Below, piece by piece: positions 4,615 to 43,594 of a stretch of 64,000 nucleotides of DNA. The stretch lies in the NCBI GenBank assembly GCA_024279915.1, contig JAJRRB010000025.1, positions 1-64,000 on the forward strand, written 5' to 3'. The notes beneath the pieces were generated by a model that did not search any database, had not been told where the DNA came from, and saw only the letters and a program-made list of their open reading frames with translations. Position numbers and translations under genes: made by a program. Source of the stretch: Deltaproteobacteria bacterium (GTDB lineage: Bacteria; Desulfobacterota; Desulfuromonadia; Desulfuromonadales; BM103). Every line of letters starts with the position of its first letter. Within the stretch, counting starts at the first letter, position 1.

Positions 4615-5257
4615 CGATCACGCCATGATCCGTGAAGGATTACGGCAATTACTGGAAGTGCAGGCAGATATTGAAGTTGTCGGCGAGGCCACAGATGGCG
4701 TCGAGGCTTTGGAAAGGTGCCGTGCATTGCGCCCTGATGTTGCCCTGTTGGATATTGCCATGCCGCGGATGACAGGTGTCGAATCAATCTCACTTATCAA
4801 ACAGGCGTCACCCAATACCGAGGTGGTTATCCTCTCCATGTACGAGAAGGAAGCCTATGTTCATCAGGCACTAAAAGCCGGTGCCCGTGGTTACGTATTG
4901 AAGGCCGCATCGAGCACCTACCTGCTCGCTGCCATCCGTAGAGCAAGCAGCGGCGAGTTTTATCTCTCTCCGAAAGTCCGCAACGACGTTATGGAGTCAT
5001 ATCTGAAAGGTCAACGGGAGGAACCCCAGCCCAAGGGCGGCTATGAGCTCCTCTCCGATCGCGAACGCCAGGTCTTCCTGTTACTGGTCGAAGGGAACAC
5101 AACCAACCAGATCAGCGAAATTCTCTGCGTCAGCCCAAAAACTGCCGAGAAGCACCGAGCCAACATCATCAAGAAAATCGGTATCAATCAACCAGTCAAA
5201 ATGGTGCAGTATGCCATCCGGATAGGAGTTGTCGATCCGGAATCCTGGCGAACCTGA
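4586..5257 (+). CDS. NarL/FixJ-family response regulator
   Basis: 223 aa with both expected domains. The receiver (1-120) has the acidic pair D10/D11, phospho-acceptor D56 (LLDIAMP), Ser/Thr switch (ILSM) and K106 (YVLK). The LuxR/GerE helix-turn-helix (about 150-212) shows LSDRERQVFLLLVEGNTTNQ and SPKTAEKHRANIIKKIG, the standard recognition-helix signature. Translation starts inside the end of the kinase gene. It should be phosphorylated by that kinase and act as a DNA-binding transcription factor. Its regulon cannot be read from sequence, but the adjacent single-domain regulator and large secreted operon are candidates. Confidence 0.92.
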   Translation: MKPIRVLIADDHAMIREGLRQLLEVQADIEVVGEATDGVEALERCRALRPDVALLDIAMPRMTGVESISLIKQASPNTEVVILSMYEKEAYVHQALKAGARGYVLKAASSTYLLAAIRRASSGEFYLSPKVRNDVMESYLKGQREEPQPKGGYELLSDRERQVFLLLVEGNTTNQISEILCVSPKTAEKHRANIIKKIGINQPVKMVQYAIRIGVVDPESWRT

Positions 5258-6120: not shown

Positions 6121-9100
6121 ATGAGGCAGACAATCTTAAACGGTGGCTTACGCAGCGCAGCAAAATTGTGGCTGTTTTTACTGGTGATGTTTTCCTGCAC
6201 ACTCATCGTGCCGCAGGCGAATGCTTTTATTATCAATGTCGTTGAGAAGAACCCGGACGGGACTGTCTCACCGATCAACAGTGGTTTTCGTTGGCTGGTT
6301 GAGGAAGACAACACCCACCTGACGGTTCCTGGAGCACGGGTATCGGACAGTATCAGCGTCAACATCCATAACAGCCATGCCCCCGTGGTTGCTGAAGGGT
6401 CTTCCACCTCTTCTTCGGATTCGGCTGATGTCCCCACCAGCGGGCGCTACTTCGTCTCGGTTCTTCCAGATCCAGATTCTGGCTATTCCAACGGCGGTAC
6501 TACGGTCGCTACCGGGGCTAATTTTGCCTTGGTTGTCGTCAACGCACTACCCTTCCCGACAGCCCAGATTTCTGTCTTAACCCATCTTGCCCAAAACCCG
6601 ATCAACAACATTTGGGATGAGGCTGATGGCGGGCCTGGTGGCCAGCGTAATGGTGGCTTTGGTGGCGTTGGCGTCATGATTGCCGACGCCGCAGGCATGG
6701 TTTCCCAGGACGCCTTCGGCAATCCTCTGGGAACCGCCTATCTGAGAGTCGACCCTCAGGATATAAACAGCGACTATGTGCTCGATGGCGAAGGTAACCC
6801 GGTGGTTGACGTCTTAGGTACAGGTACCCTTGAAACCTTGACCCTGGATGATTTCAATGCTGGCAACAACCCTTACGGAATCAACGTGGGTGAATTGCTG
6901 ATCAAAAACCTGGTCCCCGGCAAATACGGGGTCACCGTGACCGCGCCTCATTTCGACGATTCCGGCAACCCGGTAACATTTATCCAGACCACCACCATCG
7001 AGGGCACACCCACTATCGATGCCTGGGTCCAGGCCGACGAAGCGAAGGTTTTTGTCGAAGGATTTGGCACCGGGTTTAATCATGTCGTTTTCGGTTTTGT
7101 CAAGGTCAGCCCGACAGAATCTTCAATAATCAAGGGCCAGGCAATCAACGTTCCCCCCTGGAATATCACTGATATCACTGATCCGAACTACGTTGACCGT
7201 GTCGGATTGCTGGGTGGGGTTGTTTTCACCGGTTCGATCACAGGCACCCTGAGACTTAACCATTTCTCCCGTCCGCCAGCCTTGCAGGGCTATTTCCCCG
7301 GCCCCGTTGTTGAGGATTGCTGGGTGGGGTTGAATGATCCCAATGTCTGGGTGGGGTTGAATGATCCCAATGTCCAGCCAGCAGTTACCCCGTCGGGCCT
7401 TTATGTTGCGCCTTGTGACCCTGTTACCGGTAAATTCACGATCAATAATGTCCCACCAGGGACTTATCAGCTGGTGAACTGGGAAACCCCTCTTGACTAT
7501 CTCTTCGGCACCCAGACTGTGCTGGTCCCCGATATCACCAATCCTGGTACCGGTGATGTCGTAGATCTAGGCACTCAACTGGTGTTTCGTTGGTTCGGTA
7601 ACCTGGAGGGGACTGTTTTCCTCGACGAAAATCAAAACGGTTTTCGGGAGAATAACGAGCCAGGTCTGCCCAATCAGGACCTGGCCTTGCGCTTCCGCGA
7701 CGGGACCATCTATCAGGCGACGGCAACCGATCTGGACGGTGAATACTCCTTCGCTGAAGTCTTCCCCTTCTTCAAATGGCTGGTTGTTGAAGTTGCCCCT
7801 TCCGCACTTAATGACACCGGCTATACCAACGCGGTCGATTATGGTGGATTAGTCCCAGATAACGATGGCTGGACTGTTCCTTCCCGGGGGAAACTCACTC
7901 CGCAGCCCCAGGTGGAAGACAATCCCAACACCCTCAACAACCTCTCGCGCACCGAAGGTATCGGAGATGGCAGCATCGGAGAACCGGGCGCGCACCTGCT
8001 GCAGGCCATGCATCTGTTCCTGGGACAAACCAACGTTATTGACTGGGGTAAAAATGTCTATACGGATGGCAACAATGGTGGTGTCTCAGGTGTTGTCTTC
8101 TACGCAGTGACGCGCGCCGAGAACGACCCGCGCTTCGCCGCCGGCGAGGAATGGGAACCTGGGATCCCGCGGGTGCAGGTCAACCTCTATCTCGATCATA
8201 ATGCCGACGGCGTCATCGACGGCGGCGTTCTGGCTGACATCGACAACTACCCCCTCGGCTGGAATGACGGGACCGCTCTACAGGGGTCCGAAGATATTGA
8301 TCGCAACGGCAATGGCACCTTTGACTGGGGCTCCGCCCTCAATGTTGCCTGGACCGATAGCTGGGACGACAACAAGCCGTCCGGGTGTATCCAGGAGCTG
8401 CCTATTATCCACGGCAAGCCCATCCCCGAATGTGCGGATGGCTTCGGTACCTGGAACCAGCTACGCCCTGGAGTCTTTGATGGCGGTTACGCCATTACCT
8501 CGATCTTCCCAGATGGCCCTGACGTGCCTGAAACAGAAACGGCACCGATCCCTTCGGACACCTATATCGTTGAAACGGCGGCTCCCAATGGCTATCTGTT
8601 AATGAAAGAAGAGGACAAGAACGTTGATTTCGGTGATACCTACACCCCGAGCACGCTGAACGTGGCCGCTGAATGTGTTGGTGATCTCCACGTGGTTCCT
8701 CCGTTTCTCACTCTTGACGGGGCCACACCGGCCCCCTTCGCTGGCACGTCCCGGCCTTTATGTGACCGCAAGCAGGTTGCAATCATCGGCGGGCAAAATA
8801 CCCCGGCCGATTTCTGGTACTTCACCCAGGTACCCAAGGCGGCCCGTGCCGTTGGCTTTGTCAATAACGACCTGGCTGCAGAATTCAGCCAGGCCAGCCC
8901 CAACTTCGGTGAGAAGTCGACCCCGTCCTGGATTCCCGTTTCCTTCCAGGACTTCAAAGGGAATGAGCTGGTCAGGGTCTATGCTGACGAATTTGGCGGT
9001 TACAATGCTTTATTGCCTTCGACTTACACGGTTAACGTCCCGTCGCCAACCGGTGTCTCTCCCCACATGATACCCCTGGTTTTGAATGACCCGACGTTCG

Positions 9101-38061: not shown

Positions 38062-38544
38062 ATGAAGATATTGATCAGTTCAATACTGGCCGCCGGCCTG
38101 ATGTTCTCAACCTCGGCCCTGGCCGCACCACCTGACACCGCTGACCTCGAAAAGCGACTGCAGCAACAAGAGCGCCGTATAGATCGCCTTGAACGGGCGG
38201 TCGAGTCCCTGCAGAGCCGCCTATTGGACTCACAGTACGGCGAGCCGGCTGATGTCGGCAGTTCCCGGGGTCAGGATCGCAACGCCGTCGACCCCCTGGT
38301 CGGCACCTGGGAATGCACCAACAACGTGTTTAATTACGACATTTCCTTCTTTGCCGACGGGCGCCTCATTCAGGAGGAGCCTTTCTTCAGCAAAGCAAAG
38401 GGCAGTCGTTGGTCACGCCTGGATGAAGACCGGTTCGTCACCAAACAAGGGCAAACATTCAGTATGGACTTCCGATCGAATGATGAGCTCACGGTGACCA
38501 ACATGACCAACAAAGGGGTCTGGGAGTGCTCCCGCATACAATGA
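38062..38544 (+). CDS. Small exported coiled-coil protein of unknown function
   Basis: 160 aa from ATG at 38062 (AAGGAG 6 nt upstream); a longer frame from 38014 lacks a ribosome-binding site. A signal peptide (MKILISSILAAGLMFSTSALA) is followed by a short coiled coil (LEKRLQQQERRIDRLERAVE). A compact beta-rich domain (DPLVGTWECTNNVFNYDISF, later GVWECSRIQ) carries two Cys in WEC contexts that could form a disulfide. The fold recalls small lipocalin-like proteins, but I cannot assign it. Probably periplasmic. Confidence 0.7.
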   Translation: MKILISSILAAGLMFSTSALAAPPDTADLEKRLQQQERRIDRLERAVESLQSRLLDSQYGEPADVGSSRGQDRNAVDPLVGTWECTNNVFNYDISFFADGRLIQEEPFFSKAKGSRWSRLDEDRFVTKQGQTFSMDFRSNDELTVTNMTNKGVWECSRIQ

Positions 38545-38765
38545 GACGTGAAGGGCAAAAAACGCTCTTCAGCACACACTATACGACAATCCCTGTCACA
38601 CAGGTGGGATCCTCCCATTAGACCTTGGGGAGAGCCCCTGTCAATTTCAGCCGTCAGACAAATGACAAGAATATTTTAATATTGTTGAAAATTAAGGGGT
38701 AATTTGTTACATAAGCTACGAGGGAACCCTAAGACTCAAGACACACATGAGGACCACACCAACTG

Positions 38766-39038
38766 ATGTTGCCACCCAAACAACATAAAGCCTTCTGCGA
38801 TTTCTACGATGTCGTCCGCAACGAAGAGCACCTTGATGCCCGTACCACAGCAATGATCGGGTTGGCCACTGCGATAGCCCGGGAATGCCAGCCATGAATC
38901 GAGTACTACCTTGGCGTGGCCAAGGCACAAAACATCTCGAACGAAGAAATCGGCGCCATTCAGGGAATCGTTATGGCCGTTGCCGCTGGCAAGATCAATA
39001 CCTTGATGCGCGAACTTTCCTCTACTTCTCAAGACTGA
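38766..39038 (+). CDS. AhpD/CMD-family selenoprotein with a Cys-x-x-Sec motif (in-frame UGA)
   Basis: 90 aa if the TGA at 38895-38897 is read as selenocysteine (residue 44). Upstream the frame reads MLPPKQHKAFCDFYDVVRNE, then TTAMIGLATAIARECQP. After the UGA it continues IEYYLGVAKAQNISNEEIGA and IQGIVMAVAAGKI to a TGA at 39036. This is the carboxymuconolactone-decarboxylase/AhpD helix pattern, with the redox CxxC replaced by C41-x-x-U44. The usual His four residues after the second Cys is Tyr48. AhpD-like proteins are thiol oxidoreductases acting in peroxide reduction. A 7-bp hairpin follows the UGA at the right distance for a bacterial SECIS element. The gene ends 45 bp before selA, so the operon encodes the Sec machinery together with a Sec product. 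ATG 38766 has GAGGA 12 nt upstream. Confidence 0.85.
38909..38925 (+). promoter_or_regulatory. Putative SECIS hairpin of the CMD selenoprotein
   Basis: A perfect stem CCTTGGC / GCCAAGG with loop GTG starts 11 nt after the UGA; the loop lies about 19 nt from it. Bacterial SECIS elements sit just 3' of the UGA inside the reading frame and present G/U bases in the loop to SelB. Identification is from position and shape only. Confidence 0.65.
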
Positions 39039-39083
39039 ACCTCTCATCAAGACATCTTTACTTGAACAACCAGGAGGTGATCC

Positions 39084-40499
39084 ATGTCTGATCGCCGAGC
39101 ACTTCTGCGTACTCTGCCCGCCATTGATCTACTCTTATGCACGCCGCTGCTTGCTGAACTTGAGCAGACACAGCCTCACATCCTGATCCGTGAAGCCGCC
39201 CAGAAAACAGTTGACGACCTGCGCCAACAACTTCTGGACGAACAGGCTATGTTGCCTGATCTCGACCTTGGTGCCGTTGCCAGTCTGGTCGCTATAAGGG
39301 TTGCAGAACTGGCCAAACCATCATTGCGAAAAGTCATCAATGTAACCGGCACCCTGCTGCACACCAACCTTGGCCGAGCCCCGCTCTGCAGCGACGCGCT
39401 GCAAGCAATCACAGAGATCAGCCAAGGCTACTCCAATCTTGAATATGATCTCGATGAAGGACAGCGTGGCAAGCGTTTCACTCATGTTGAAGAGTTGATC
39501 TGCAAGCTGACCGGTGGCGAAGCAGCTACGGTGGTCAACAACAACGCCGGAGCAGTTATGCTCACTTTGGCGGCTTTGGCCGGTGGCAGCAGCGCCGTGG
39601 TCTCACGCGGCGAGCTGATTGAGATCGGTGGTTCTTTCCGGATTCCAGACATCATGGCCGCCAGCGGTGTCGGCCTGATCGAAGTCGGCACGACCAACAA
39701 GACACACCTCAAAGACTATGCAGAAGCACTCGGTAGCGAAACAGCCCTGATTCTCAAAGTTCATACCAGCAACTATCGCATTCTCGGTTTTACCGAAGCT
39801 GTGAGTGGCGAAGATTTGGCCGTACTGGCCCATCAACATGAGATTCCGGTCCTTGAAGATCTCGGCAGCGGCCTGCTGATGGATTTGACTCCTTACGGCC
39901 TGCCGCGTGAGCCAACCGTACGTGAAGCATTGAAAACCGGCATCGATCTGGTCACTTTCAGCGGTGACAAGTTGTTGGGTGGGCCACAGGCCGGGATCAT
40001 TGTCGGCAATCGAGATGTCATCGATAAGGTACGTAAACATCCCATGGCCCGTGCTCTACGTATCGACAAGCTGACTCTGGCTGCACTCGAAGCGACACTC
40101 AGACTTTATCTTGACCCGCAGAAGGCACTAGAGCAGGTCCCGACCCTGAAGATGCTCTCACTCCCTGTTGCGGAACTACAGCAACGCTGCGAAACCTTGC
40201 TACCTCGATTAATGGAAGTGATTGGCGAGGCCGCTGACTGTACAATTATTGAAGCAGCCGCCACTGTCGGTGGTGGTGCTCTGCCACTGACTGAGCTACC
40301 AGGACAAGTCATTGCCCTGAAACCAAAAGAGATGTCACTGAACGTCCTGACGACCCGACTGCGCAGCTGTGAGCCAGCGGTTGTCGGACGTATTCAGAAT
40401 GATCAGTTTCTGATTGATCCACGCACATTGAACAATGATGACAAGGAGCTTCTGTTGCTTGCCTTGAAACAGGCGTTTAACCCAGGACAAGACCATTAA
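39084..40499 (+). CDS. selA: L-seryl-tRNA(Sec) selenium transferase
   Basis: 471 aa, the usual SelA length, behind an AGGAGGTGAT ribosome-binding site. SelA is a cytosolic PLP enzyme that converts seryl-tRNA(Sec) to selenocysteinyl-tRNA(Sec) using selenophosphate from SelD. Landmarks are KVINVTGTLLHTNLGRAPL (about 84-102), the glycine-rich CKLTGGEAATVVNNNAGAV, and the PLP-lysine segment DLVTFSGDKLLGGPQAGII (about 290-308). The N-terminal tRNA-binding helical domain (about 1-75) is present. It is second in the operon after the CMD selenoprotein. A palindromic intergenic repeat begins at its stop codon. Confidence 0.97.
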   Translation: MSDRRALLRTLPAIDLLLCTPLLAELEQTQPHILIREAAQKTVDDLRQQLLDEQAMLPDLDLGAVASLVAIRVAELAKPSLRKVINVTGTLLHTNLGRAPLCSDALQAITEISQGYSNLEYDLDEGQRGKRFTHVEELICKLTGGEAATVVNNNAGAVMLTLAALAGGSSAVVSRGELIEIGGSFRIPDIMAASGVGLIEVGTTNKTHLKDYAEALGSETALILKVHTSNYRILGFTEAVSGEDLAVLAHQHEIPVLEDLGSGLLMDLTPYGLPREPTVREALKTGIDLVTFSGDKLLGGPQAGIIVGNRDVIDKVRKHPMARALRIDKLTLAALEATLRLYLDPQKALEQVPTLKMLSLPVAELQQRCETLLPRLMEVIGEAADCTIIEAAATVGGGALPLTELPGQVIALKPKEMSLNVLTTRLRSCEPAVVGRIQNDQFLIDPRTLNNDDKELLLLALKQAFNPGQDH

Positions 40500-40602: not shown

Positions 40603-42513
40603 ATGAGCACCTCAACCCGTTACCACATCATCGGTACAGCCGGACATGTTGACCACGGCAAAACCGTGCTGATCAACAAGCTCACCGGCATCAACACCGA
40701 CCGTCTCAAAGAAGAGCAGGAACGCGGCATTTCCATCGAACTCGGCTTCGCCCCCTTCAAACTGACCAATGGCAGTATGGTTGGCGTTGTTGATGTACCG
40801 GGCCATGAGAAGTTCATCCACAACATGCTCGCCGGTATCGGCGGCATCGACCTGGTCCTGCTGGTCATCGATGTGCACGAAGGCGTTATGCAGCAGACCC
40901 GTGAGCATCTGCAGATATTGCAACTGTTAGAGATCCCGCGCGGCATCCTGATTCTGACCAAGTGTGATCTGGCCGAAGCAGACTGGATTGATATCGTTGA
41001 AGAAGAGGTGCGCGAAACTTTCGCCGGGACCTTCCTTGAGAAGGCACCCTGCTGCAGAGTTTCGGCGATTCAGGGTGACGGCATCGAAGAGCTCAAGAAG
41101 ACCATCCAGAAGATCCTCGAAGAACTGCCGCCGCGCGACGAGGACGGCCCTACCCGCCTGCCAATTGACCGTCATTTTACAATCAGTGGCTTCGGCACGG
41201 TGGTCACCGGCACCTTGCTCTCCGGCCGCATCAAAGTTGGCGATACTGTTGAAGTTATGCCACCGGGAGAGACAGTTCGAGTCCGTGAAATCCAGGTTCA
41301 TGGAGAAAAAGCTGAAGTTGCCCGTGCCGGACAGCGGGTCGCCCTCAATCTGGCCGGGATGGAACGAAGCGATCTCGTCCGTGGCGCAGTCGTTGCCACA
41401 CCTGGTTTCTTCACCATGACCGAGCGTTTTGATGCCCGATTCAATCTATTGCCAGAAGCGCCACGTCCACTCAAATTCCGCGATCCGATTCACCTGCACA
41501 TGGGCACTGCCAAAGTCACTGCTCGGGTGGCCCTGCTTGATCGTGATGAACTGAAACCGGGAGAAAGCGTACTGGCGCAATTTCACCTCGATCAACCGCT
41601 GGTCGCCCATCGTCAGGACCGCTTCATCGTCCGTTCCTATTCACCAATGACAACCATCGGCGGCGGCCAGATTATCGATCCGGCCCCGGTCAAGCATAAG
41701 CGTTTTCGCAAAGAGGTTATGCAGGCGCTCAAAGAACTTGAATCGGGTGAAGGCTCGTTCATCGTGCAGAAGCTTGCAGAACTTGGCTGCGTTAAGCTCA
41801 AAGAATTGGAGCAAGCCTCAGGGCTGGGCCGTGACCGGGTCACGGCGTTACTGGAAGGACTTTCCATAGCTGGGCAAATCAAACGGATTGGTGACCAATG
41901 GGTTACGGTGGAAACAGCGCGTGCCTGGCAACGCATCATGGTGGAATCGGTTGCAAACTACCATCGTGACAATCCCCTGCAACCCGGCATTCCCCACGCC
42001 ACTCTCAAAGCGACTCTGCCTGCCAAGGTTGCACCGAAAGCCTTTGAACAACTCCTTGGCGATCTCATCACAGACGGACAACTGGCACAACGTGGTGAAT
42101 GGGTCGCCCAAACCGATTTTTCTCCGCAACCGACCGAGGAGCAGAAGCTGCTGCTGCAAAAACTGGAGGAGGTTTACCTTAATGCTGGTTTTGAGGCGAA
42201 AGGTCGGGTTGATATGCTGGGCCTGGCCAGAGTCCCTGATGCACAGGTCGAGTCCTTGCTCACCTTTCTCTTTTCTAAGGGCACTCTGATTCGACTCAAT
42301 GATGATTCACTGATTCACAAAAAGGCCTACCAGGAGGCTGTGGCATATCTCAAGACTCACTTTGCCAACAAAGAGACCCTGACGCTGGCCGAATTCCGCG
42401 ACCTGATCGGCAGCGCCCGCAAACAGACGCAAGCGATTCTGGAGCTCTTTGACCGACTCAAGTATACTATGCGTAAGGGCGATGAACGCGTTGCCTGGAA
42501 ACTACCTGAATAA
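40603..42513 (+). CDS. selB: Selenocysteine-specific elongation factor
   Basis: 636 aa. SelB is an EF-Tu-like GTPase that brings Sec-tRNA(Sec) to UGA codons by binding the SECIS hairpin. The G domain shows IIGTAGHVDHGKTVLINKLTG, the SelB-type EEQERGISIELGFA, DVPGHEKFIHNMLAGI and ILTKCDL. Domains II and III follow (FTISGFGTVVTGTLLSGRI; VRSYSPMTTIGGGQIID). The C-terminal winged-helix repeats (about 370-636; EFRDLIGSARKQTQAILELFDRLKYTMRKG at the end) bind the SECIS RNA. It lies between selA and selD. Confidence 0.97.
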   Translation: MSTSTRYHIIGTAGHVDHGKTVLINKLTGINTDRLKEEQERGISIELGFAPFKLTNGSMVGVVDVPGHEKFIHNMLAGIGGIDLVLLVIDVHEGVMQQTREHLQILQLLEIPRGILILTKCDLAEADWIDIVEEEVRETFAGTFLEKAPCCRVSAIQGDGIEELKKTIQKILEELPPRDEDGPTRLPIDRHFTISGFGTVVTGTLLSGRIKVGDTVEVMPPGETVRVREIQVHGEKAEVARAGQRVALNLAGMERSDLVRGAVVATPGFFTMTERFDARFNLLPEAPRPLKFRDPIHLHMGTAKVTARVALLDRDELKPGESVLAQFHLDQPLVAHRQDRFIVRSYSPMTTIGGGQIIDPAPVKHKRFRKEVMQALKELESGEGSFIVQKLAELGCVKLKELEQASGLGRDRVTALLEGLSIAGQIKRIGDQWVTVETARAWQRIMVESVANYHRDNPLQPGIPHATLKATLPAKVAPKAFEQLLGDLITDGQLAQRGEWVAQTDFSPQPTEEQKLLLQKLEEVYLNAGFEAKGRVDMLGLARVPDAQVESLLTFLFSKGTLIRLNDDSLIHKKAYQEAVAYLKTHFANKETLTLAEFRDLIGSARKQTQAILELFDRLKYTMRKGDERVAWKLPE

Positions 42514-42568: not shown

Positions 42569-43594
42569 ATGAAACTGACTCACCTATCCAAAACCAGCGG
42601 TTGAGCCGCCAAGATGGCCCCGGGGCCATTGGCGCAGGTGCTGCGCCAGCTACCAACCGTTGAGGATAAGAACCTTTTAACCGCTGATATCCCATTTGCT
42701 GATGCCGGAGTCTACCAAATCGCAAAGGATTGCGCGCTGGTGCAATCAGTCGATTTCTTTACACCGATTGTCGATGATCCTGGCACTTTCGGCCGCATTG
42801 CCGCAGCCAACGCTCTCTCCGACATTTATGCTATGGGCGGGAAACCTCTGACGGTGATGAATCTGGTCGGGTTTCCTTCCTGCCTGGGACACGATGTTCT
42901 GGTTGAGATACTCAAAGGTGGCGCGGAAAAAGTCCATGAAGCCGGGGCACTGGTTGTTGGCGGACACACCGTTGAGGATGATGAACCAAAATACGGTCTG
43001 GCCGTGACCGGCCTGGTCGATCCGCAACAGTTGGTGACCACTGCGGGTGCACAGCCTGGCGATGTGCTGGTTTTGACCAAGCCCCTCGGCGTCGGCATCC
43101 TGGCGACCGCTTTAAAGGGTGAAGTCATTCAGGAAGACCAGATGGGCGAAGCCATTCGCGGTATGGAAAGCCTGAACCGCGCCGCATCGGAAGTCATGCT
43201 TAAAGTTGGCGTCAACGCCTGCACCGACATCACCGGTTTCGGCCTGCTCGGTCACACTCTGGAACTGGCTGAAGCCAGTCAGATCGGCATTGAGATAGAG
43301 GCCTCTGCCCTGCATATCTATCCGCAGGTGATGGATCTCGCCGCAATCGGCATGGTTCCGGCCGGCAGCTACCGCAACCGTGAGTATTATATGCCTAAAG
43401 TGGTCAATCGCGAGCGCGTAGCCCCCGAGATCGTCGATATTCTCGCCGATCCGCAAACCTCTGGCGGATTATTGATTTCGGTACCTGCGGAGAGTTTAAC
43501 GCAACTCAACTCTGAACTCGAATCAGCCGGTTGCAACGCATTTAACATCGGCCGGGTCGTTGCTGAATATCCTGGGCAGATGATGGTGAAATAA
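42569..43594 (+). CDS. selD: Selenophosphate synthetase, itself a selenoprotein (in-frame UGA)
   Basis: 341 aa from ATG at 42569 when the TGA at 42602-42604 is read as selenocysteine: MKLTHLSKTSG-U-AAKMAPGPLAQ. Residue 12 is the catalytic Cys/Sec of SelD and is followed by the conserved Ala-Ala-Lys. A start at the internal ATG 42614 would remove both the catalytic residue and the essential Lys. Further landmarks are VQSVDFFTPIVDDPGTFGRI, AANALSDIYAMGGKPLTVMN, VGGHTVEDDEPKYGLAVTG, CTDITGFGLLGHTLELAE and LADPQTSGGLLISV. The enzyme makes selenophosphate from selenide and ATP for SelA. Hairpins directly after the UGA are SECIS candidates. Last gene of the Sec operon. Confidence 0.95.
42608..42648 (+). 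promoter_or_regulatory. Putative SECIS structure of selD
   Basis: Two hairpins compete or stack after the UGA. 42608-42633 is a 10-bp stem with a 2-nt bulge and loop CCGG. 42630-42648 has stem TGGCGCA / TGCGCCA with loop GGTGC, resembling the GCAGGUCUGC apex of the E. coli fdhF SECIS. Which one binds SelB cannot be told from sequence. Confidence 0.6.

Follow-up and report, generated by a model that had tools for sequence, protein, structure and literature searches.

A CMD-domain CxxU protein encoded directly upstream of selA in a deltaproteobacterium and its relatives, very probably a selenoprotein

Reports of CMD/AhpD-like selenoproteins with a CxxU motif go back to the Sargasso Sea survey (PMC1088965); such proteins also appear in PMC9312934 and PMC13188914. 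They have the Pfam family (PF02627) and the CxxU motif in common with the protein described here, the comparison being one of descriptions and not of sequences, and the published passages mention no link to selA. The Sargasso Sea survey also describes how a bacterial SECIS is recognized, namely as a stem-loop just past the UGA with a G in a small apical loop (PMC1088965). The CMD fold and a CxxC or CxxU pair are likewise shared with AhpD of Mycobacterium tuberculosis, PA0269 and RclX (7y4r). In AhpD, the proton relay is formed by Glu118, Cys130, His132, Cys133 and His137 (PMC3141380). Pseudomonas aeruginosa needs RclX to withstand HOCl (PMC7950407).

The locus considered here lies in a stretch of 64,000 nucleotides of deltaproteobacterial DNA (the window). 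A preliminary description, made from the letters of the window, had proposed a hidden selenoprotein gene of the AhpD/CMD family, with Sec in the place of the second Cys of the redox pair, and had noted that Sec forms of this family were already known from bacterial selenoproteome surveys. Direct reading confirmed the frame of 90 codons, which runs from an ATG at 38766 to a UGA stop codon at 39036-39038 and contains a single in-frame TGA, codon 44, at 38895-38897 (Table 1); the translation around this codon is ...RECQP-U-IEYYLGVAKAQ... With Cys written for Sec, the score of the 90-aa protein against the Pfam CMD model exceeds the gathering cut-off of 23 bits, and the gene is the sole CMD-domain match of its own genome at E <= 0.01. 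The in-frame UGA hides the gene from ordinary gene finders, and the usual calling would shorten the members of this subfamily.

Table 1. Features of the locus, with their positions in the window and the evidence for each.
Feature	Position	Strand	Evidence
CDS of the probable CMD-domain selenoprotein	38766..39038	+	90 aa, stop codon included; PF02627 39.9 bits
Codon of Cys41, first residue of the CxxU pair	38886..38888	+	C in 44/44 aligned members
In-frame UGA, predicted Sec44	38895..38897	+	UGA in 59/71 distinct homologous stretches, TGC in 8
Predicted SECIS stem-loop, 7 bp, loop GUG	38909..38925	+	Covariation; single-sequence folds
AGGAGG, probable ribosome-binding site of selA	39072..39077	+	By eye; similar sequence in relatives
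selA	39084..40499	+	TIGR00474 605.1 bits
selB	40603..42513	+	TIGR00475 391.2 bits
selD with in-frame UGA at 42602-42604	42569..43594	+	TIGR00476 347.2 bits, part after UGA

No NCBIfam model reaches its own cut-off on this protein. The nearest matches are the AhpD domains of MduS (NF045649; 45.3 bits versus a cut-off of 380) and of ArsM_AhpD_UU (NF041537; 43.0 versus 510), two models that include a methyltransferase part and whose cut-offs are far from reached; as a stand-alone protein of 90 residues, the present one falls outside the ArsM/AhpD fusion family. A fused relative with the motif C-D-P-U was found (L064). The GSU3128 family (NF041047, 'distant AhpD homolog') likewise consists of small stand-alone CMD-fold CxxU proteins from related bacteria, but the score of our protein is 26.3 bits against a cut-off of 110. 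A separate CxxU protein, GSU3128-like by eye, is encoded at about 4895-5152 of locus L165, whose genome belongs to the window's family but is without the sel-linked gene.

Relatives were sought in 147 genomes, the window's own included, and 58 of these gave a match at E <= 1e-4, some of the weak matches being other CMD families. Sequences identical over the compared stretch were taken once, while related species remain, in this count as in those of neighbourhoods and in the tree given below. In the resulting 71 distinct stretches, the codon at the site is TGA in 59, TGC in 8, TTA (Leu) in one and CGA (Arg) in one; the two TGT stretches are broken, misaligned copies. The UGA or Cys codon at the site in the homologues favours the proposal that the UGA stands in the place of the second Cys of the family. 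Because the Leu form (L017) and the Arg form (L136) both keep the hairpin wholly, they are to be regarded as recent losses or changes, or as assembly errors. Broken copies or mere fragments are present at no fewer than six loci (L061, L062, L063, L070, L071 and L138).

An alignment of 44 full-length members (A1) was prepared by omitting L061, L062, L063, L070 and L071 (fragmentary or broken), the fusion L064 and duplicates. The start, L2, C41, P43 and Y48 are invariant in all 44, the start codon being GTG in L004 and L050. The Tyr at Sec+4, which the preliminary description had correctly read in place of the usual His, is therefore no local oddity. As to the frame beyond the UGA, dN in 16 sel-linked sequences is 0.13 after the UGA versus 0.14 before it, showing that protein change is equally restrained on either side. 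The dN/dS ratio is 0.14 before and 0.28 after, and dS falls from 1.01 to 0.45. The conserved hairpin is expected to cause this drop, but only in part, since dS after the UGA is still 0.60 when codons 45-54 are omitted.

The hairpin CCTTGGC-GTG-GCCAAGG, beginning 11 nt past the UGA, has seven perfect pairs, as the preliminary description had stated, and a 3-nt loop. Its stability as a single sequence is only modestly above chance (36 nt folded alone, z -1.68, 12/200 shuffles as good; 46 nt, z -2.31, 7/200), and it is conservation that lifts it above chance. All seven pairs are kept in 54 of the 59 UGA sequences and six of seven in the other five, with a GUN loop in 58/59. In the alignment of these 59 sequences (A2), 98.8% of the cells pair, whereas sliding the stem by 1-3 columns lowers pairing to 18.6-58.4%. 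Double-sided changes were counted in 16 cells, against a shuffled mean of 2.1 (0/500 shuffles as high), and affect four pairs (9/500 as high); further pair types did not go beyond the shuffles in the A2 covariation test (58/500). RNAalifold independently recovered six of the seven stem pairs. The compensations can be read at the codon level: Leu CTT becomes Phe TTT together with the Lys codon AAA (4 sequences), Gly GGC becomes Ser AGC in 7 sequences in which the codon that follows the loop ends in T instead of C (GCT in six, TCT in L131), and CTT becomes CTC with A to G in 4 more. In the eight Cys forms, only 1-5 of the 7 pairs are left, and Gly-Val, whose Val codon forms the hairpin loop, is replaced by Gly-Gln, Lys-Gln or Pro-Gln. 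It is conceivable, therefore, that the SECIS accounts for part of the protein conservation, Gly-Val being present in most UGA forms. With its 7 bp, its GUN loop and its covariation, the hairpin corresponds to the description of a bacterial SECIS in PMC1088965 and, as judged from the sequences, behaves as one. Rfam gave no match at gathering scores over the whole window, and a permissive search of 38700-39300 returned two matches, both far below gathering scores.

The Sec machinery is present in the genome. Besides selA, selB and selD (Table 1), a tRNA-Sec gene lies on another contig (70.9 bits; anticodon UCA by ARAGORN in L163). The extent given for selD follows from its own in-frame UGA, which all 20 aligned loci share, a number that takes in the window's copy as well as pairs of loci from one genome; ordinary ORF calling starts selD at 42614, which is too late. 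The CMD gene does lie directly upstream of selA, as first proposed, the start of selA being 45 nt past its stop codon. Within the window's family, counting the window itself, this gap is 45 nt in 14/15 loci and 48 in the remaining one (L014); it measures 30 nt in two loci of a second family. A selC gene was found immediately upstream in two of the six relatives scanned with ARAGORN (G017 and G051); Rfam, applied to seven loci, agreed with ARAGORN on selC and added none in G006 or G059, while the upstream flank of G037 is too short to judge. Since selA, selB and selD follow downstream in G017 and G051, the complete arrangement selC-[gene]-selA-selB-selD is realized there. The subfamily thus appears as a stable first gene of the selenocysteine operon in two related families, and spacing and synteny suggest that the gene may be co-transcribed with selA. 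A scan of 38500-39200 for sigma-70 promoters and terminators gave no hits. By eye, a promoter-like pattern TTGAAA-17-TACATA is seen 5' of the gene at 38685-38713, and TTGAAA-17-TACAYA in several relatives.

It should be noted that co-occurrence with SelB says little, because selB is present in most relatives: SelB was over the cut-off in 126/147 genomes, and the gene is missing from several SelB-bearing members of the family (e.g. G011, G013, G016, G020 and G021). In favour of the selenoprotein reading, a genome of the same genus with 99% completeness (G007) gave no match to the gene at E <= 1e-4; its best match to the SelB model has E 2.4e-53, weaker than matches rated below the cut-off. Against it, a SelB match at E <= 1e-40 was absent in three fragmented assemblies that carry the gene, namely G059 (Leu form), G095 and G130 (UGA forms); the contig of G059 nonetheless shows the beginning of selB.

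The conservation of UGA or Cys at the site, the frame kept past the UGA, the covariation of the SECIS and the presence of tRNA-Sec, selA, selB and selD in the genome all support the selenoprotein reading. Very probably, 38766-39038 encodes a genuine CxxU selenoprotein, one of the CMD/AhpD-like kind already known, and a well-supported subfamily is thereby added. With high probability, the best explanation of the locus as a whole is a 90-residue CMD-fold selenoprotein whose UGA44 is decoded as Sec through the SECIS and the Sel machinery.

AlphaFold2, run on A1, gave a model of four helices with a pLDDT of 91.5. Its best Foldseek matches are structures of the CMD family (RclX 7y4r, E 1.6e-3; 3bey, E 2.8e-3), with E-values never better than 1.6e-3, and a profile search found 3bey at E 2.8e-8. 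Of the initial assignment to the AhpD/CMD family, the CMD fold therefore stands (PF02627), while membership of AhpD proper does not. When positions are assigned by their distance from the CxxC pair, the equivalents of AhpD Glu118, His132 and His137 are Ala/Val/Ile/Leu/Thr at position 29 (never Glu), Pro at 43 and Tyr at 48 in 44/44 aligned members, so that of the relay set out in PMC3141380 only the two chalcogen residues are left. With three of the five relay residues absent, the protein is not AhpD proper and a peroxidase activity is not to be assumed. The residue at Sec+3 is His in 36 and Tyr in 8 of the 44 members. The idea that the loss of the relay is tolerated thanks to Sec, whose selenol is already ionized, was considered and set aside, as the Cys forms likewise lack the His at +4.

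Motif and fold point to a thiol/selenol oxidoreductase, for which the following mechanism may be proposed. The UGA at codon 44 would be read as Sec with the aid of the SECIS 11 nt downstream, through SelA, SelB and SelD encoded directly downstream and the tRNA-Sec from another contig. In the all-helical CMD fold, helix 3 would begin at the C-x-P-U motif, in which Cys41 and Sec44 form a pair. The selenolate of Sec44 would most likely be the nucleophile that reduces an oxidized or soft-metal(loid) substrate; Cys41 would then resolve Sec44 by forming a selenenylsulfide, from which a dithiol donor of the cell would regenerate it.

The neighbourhood was compared in 72 distinct loci, with flanks whose length differs between loci. 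The next gene is selA in 18 (17 UGA, 1 Leu). In 23 loci, all with UGA, the gene lies between an ABC-type permease gene and hsp33, most of them with nuo-type genes beyond. Seven members come directly after hgcA-hgcB (3 UGA, 4 Cys), three after arsM (2 UGA, 1 Cys) and one after merA (UGA). In the remaining 20 (14 UGA, 1 Arg and 5 scored as Cys, two of these five being broken copies), none of these genes is present within the compared flanks, several of which are short. NCBIfam cut-offs were passed by HgcA and HgcB of L102, by ArsM of L111 and of L115, and by MerA of L129. The partial ArsM of L117 stays below the cut-off; the arsC-like product of L115 also scores below its cut-off, and ArsP was named by HMM in L114. 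The hgc, ars and mer names at the other loci come from tblastn with the HMM-named proteins, Hsp33 was named by tblastn to the copy found by PF01430, and the ABC and nuo names were given by eye.

The loci following hgcB are L102, L092, L096, L121, L130, L133 (match at 7001) and L036, the member being a Sec or a Cys form. A conserved small gene, MarR-like by eye, precedes hgcA in 6/7 of them and gave no NCBIfam match at E <= 1e-10. In the family of G145, the gene is present in 7/76 genomes and directly follows hgcB in six of these seven (two genomes are shared with the 72-locus count). An arsC-like gene is found downstream in two arsM loci (L115 and L117), and at another locus (L114) the gene is preceded by one for an ArsP-type permease. 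The members linked to arsM, merA or ArsP (L115, L117, L111, L129 and L114) belong to Terriglobia, Geobacter, Deferrisomatales and Neomarinimicrobiota. The window's own contig also carries hgcA, at a distance of about 80 kb (G000:C17:119745-120722). When the hsp33 region of this genome was inspected as a test of an origin of the gene at the hsp33/nuo site, neither the ABC pair nor the nuo queries gave a match there. The members after hgcB, at several mercury-methylation loci, and after arsM, at a few, offer a testable lead on a redox partner in those pathways. Our literature searches found nothing joining hgcAB with carboxymuconolactone and, by title or beginning of the abstract, nothing on a link between a selenoprotein and Hsp33, which is not to claim that either is absent from print.

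Other explanations of the UGA deserve consideration. Were it an ordinary stop codon, as UGA usually is, or were the gene decayed, as the broken copies in some relatives might suggest, the second half would be relic sequence; the conserved UGA or Cys, the conserved frame, the purifying selection and the covariation of the SECIS make this extremely improbable. The UGA could also be mainly a regulatory switch, the gene acting as a sensor: shortage of Sec would cause termination at codon 44 and alter the translation of selA-selB-selD. A UGA-SECIS unit would be a natural Sec sensor, and the gene indeed heads the sel cluster, with its nearly constant gap to selA in the window's family. However, the same protein, UGA and hairpin are found before hsp33, away from selA, in 23/72 loci, the second half is under selection at the protein level, the Leu form L017 still precedes selA without any UGA, and 17 intergenic sequences resemble each other, by eye, only in the ribosome-binding site. 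We therefore rank this possibility low, as quite improbable.

As to function, the CxxU pair might bind or reduce As, Hg or Se species, serving here the Se supply of SelD or the protection of the sel machinery. The members placed right after hgcA-hgcB (also in six of the seven positive genomes of G145's family), arsM and merA speak for this, as do the arsC-like and ArsP-type neighbours, the inclusion of arsenite-methyltransferase/AhpD and MduS fusions among the nearest NCBIfam models, and the hgcA on the window's contig. Yet the reading rests on the neighbours of cousins rather than on the window's own clade, which has none of these genes beside it; the 23 hsp33 and 20 other loci lack them in the compared flanks, the one ArsP case excepted; and only a small minority of G145's family carries the gene. 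The co-occurrence with hgcA, present in 19/21 genomes with the gene versus 22/37 without it (Fisher p 0.016), is uncorrected for relatedness. On balance, such a role seems rather unlikely. Its broadest form, in which the subfamily would serve as a selenol/thiol module for soft metal(loid)s in general (Hg after hgcAB, As after arsM and Se in the selC-[gene]-selA-selB-selD cluster), is improbable; in the sel cluster the protein would, for instance, reduce or carry Se species en route to SelD and, if this were true, the selenoprotein would belong to its own supply line.

The tree of the subfamily has little resolution, being based on few columns and leaving 31/63 inner branches open; in it, a branch with an SH-aLRT of 88 separates the 17 sel-linked rows from all others. 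By a fewest-changes count, the residue at the site changes three times, one of these changes resting on a broken copy, and because the broken L063 was included as a Cys row, the count overstates the changes by at most one. Finally, the window's genome contains an ArsM-like frame (G000:C78:5001-5678; 238.5 bits, below the cut-off) with one in-frame TGA.
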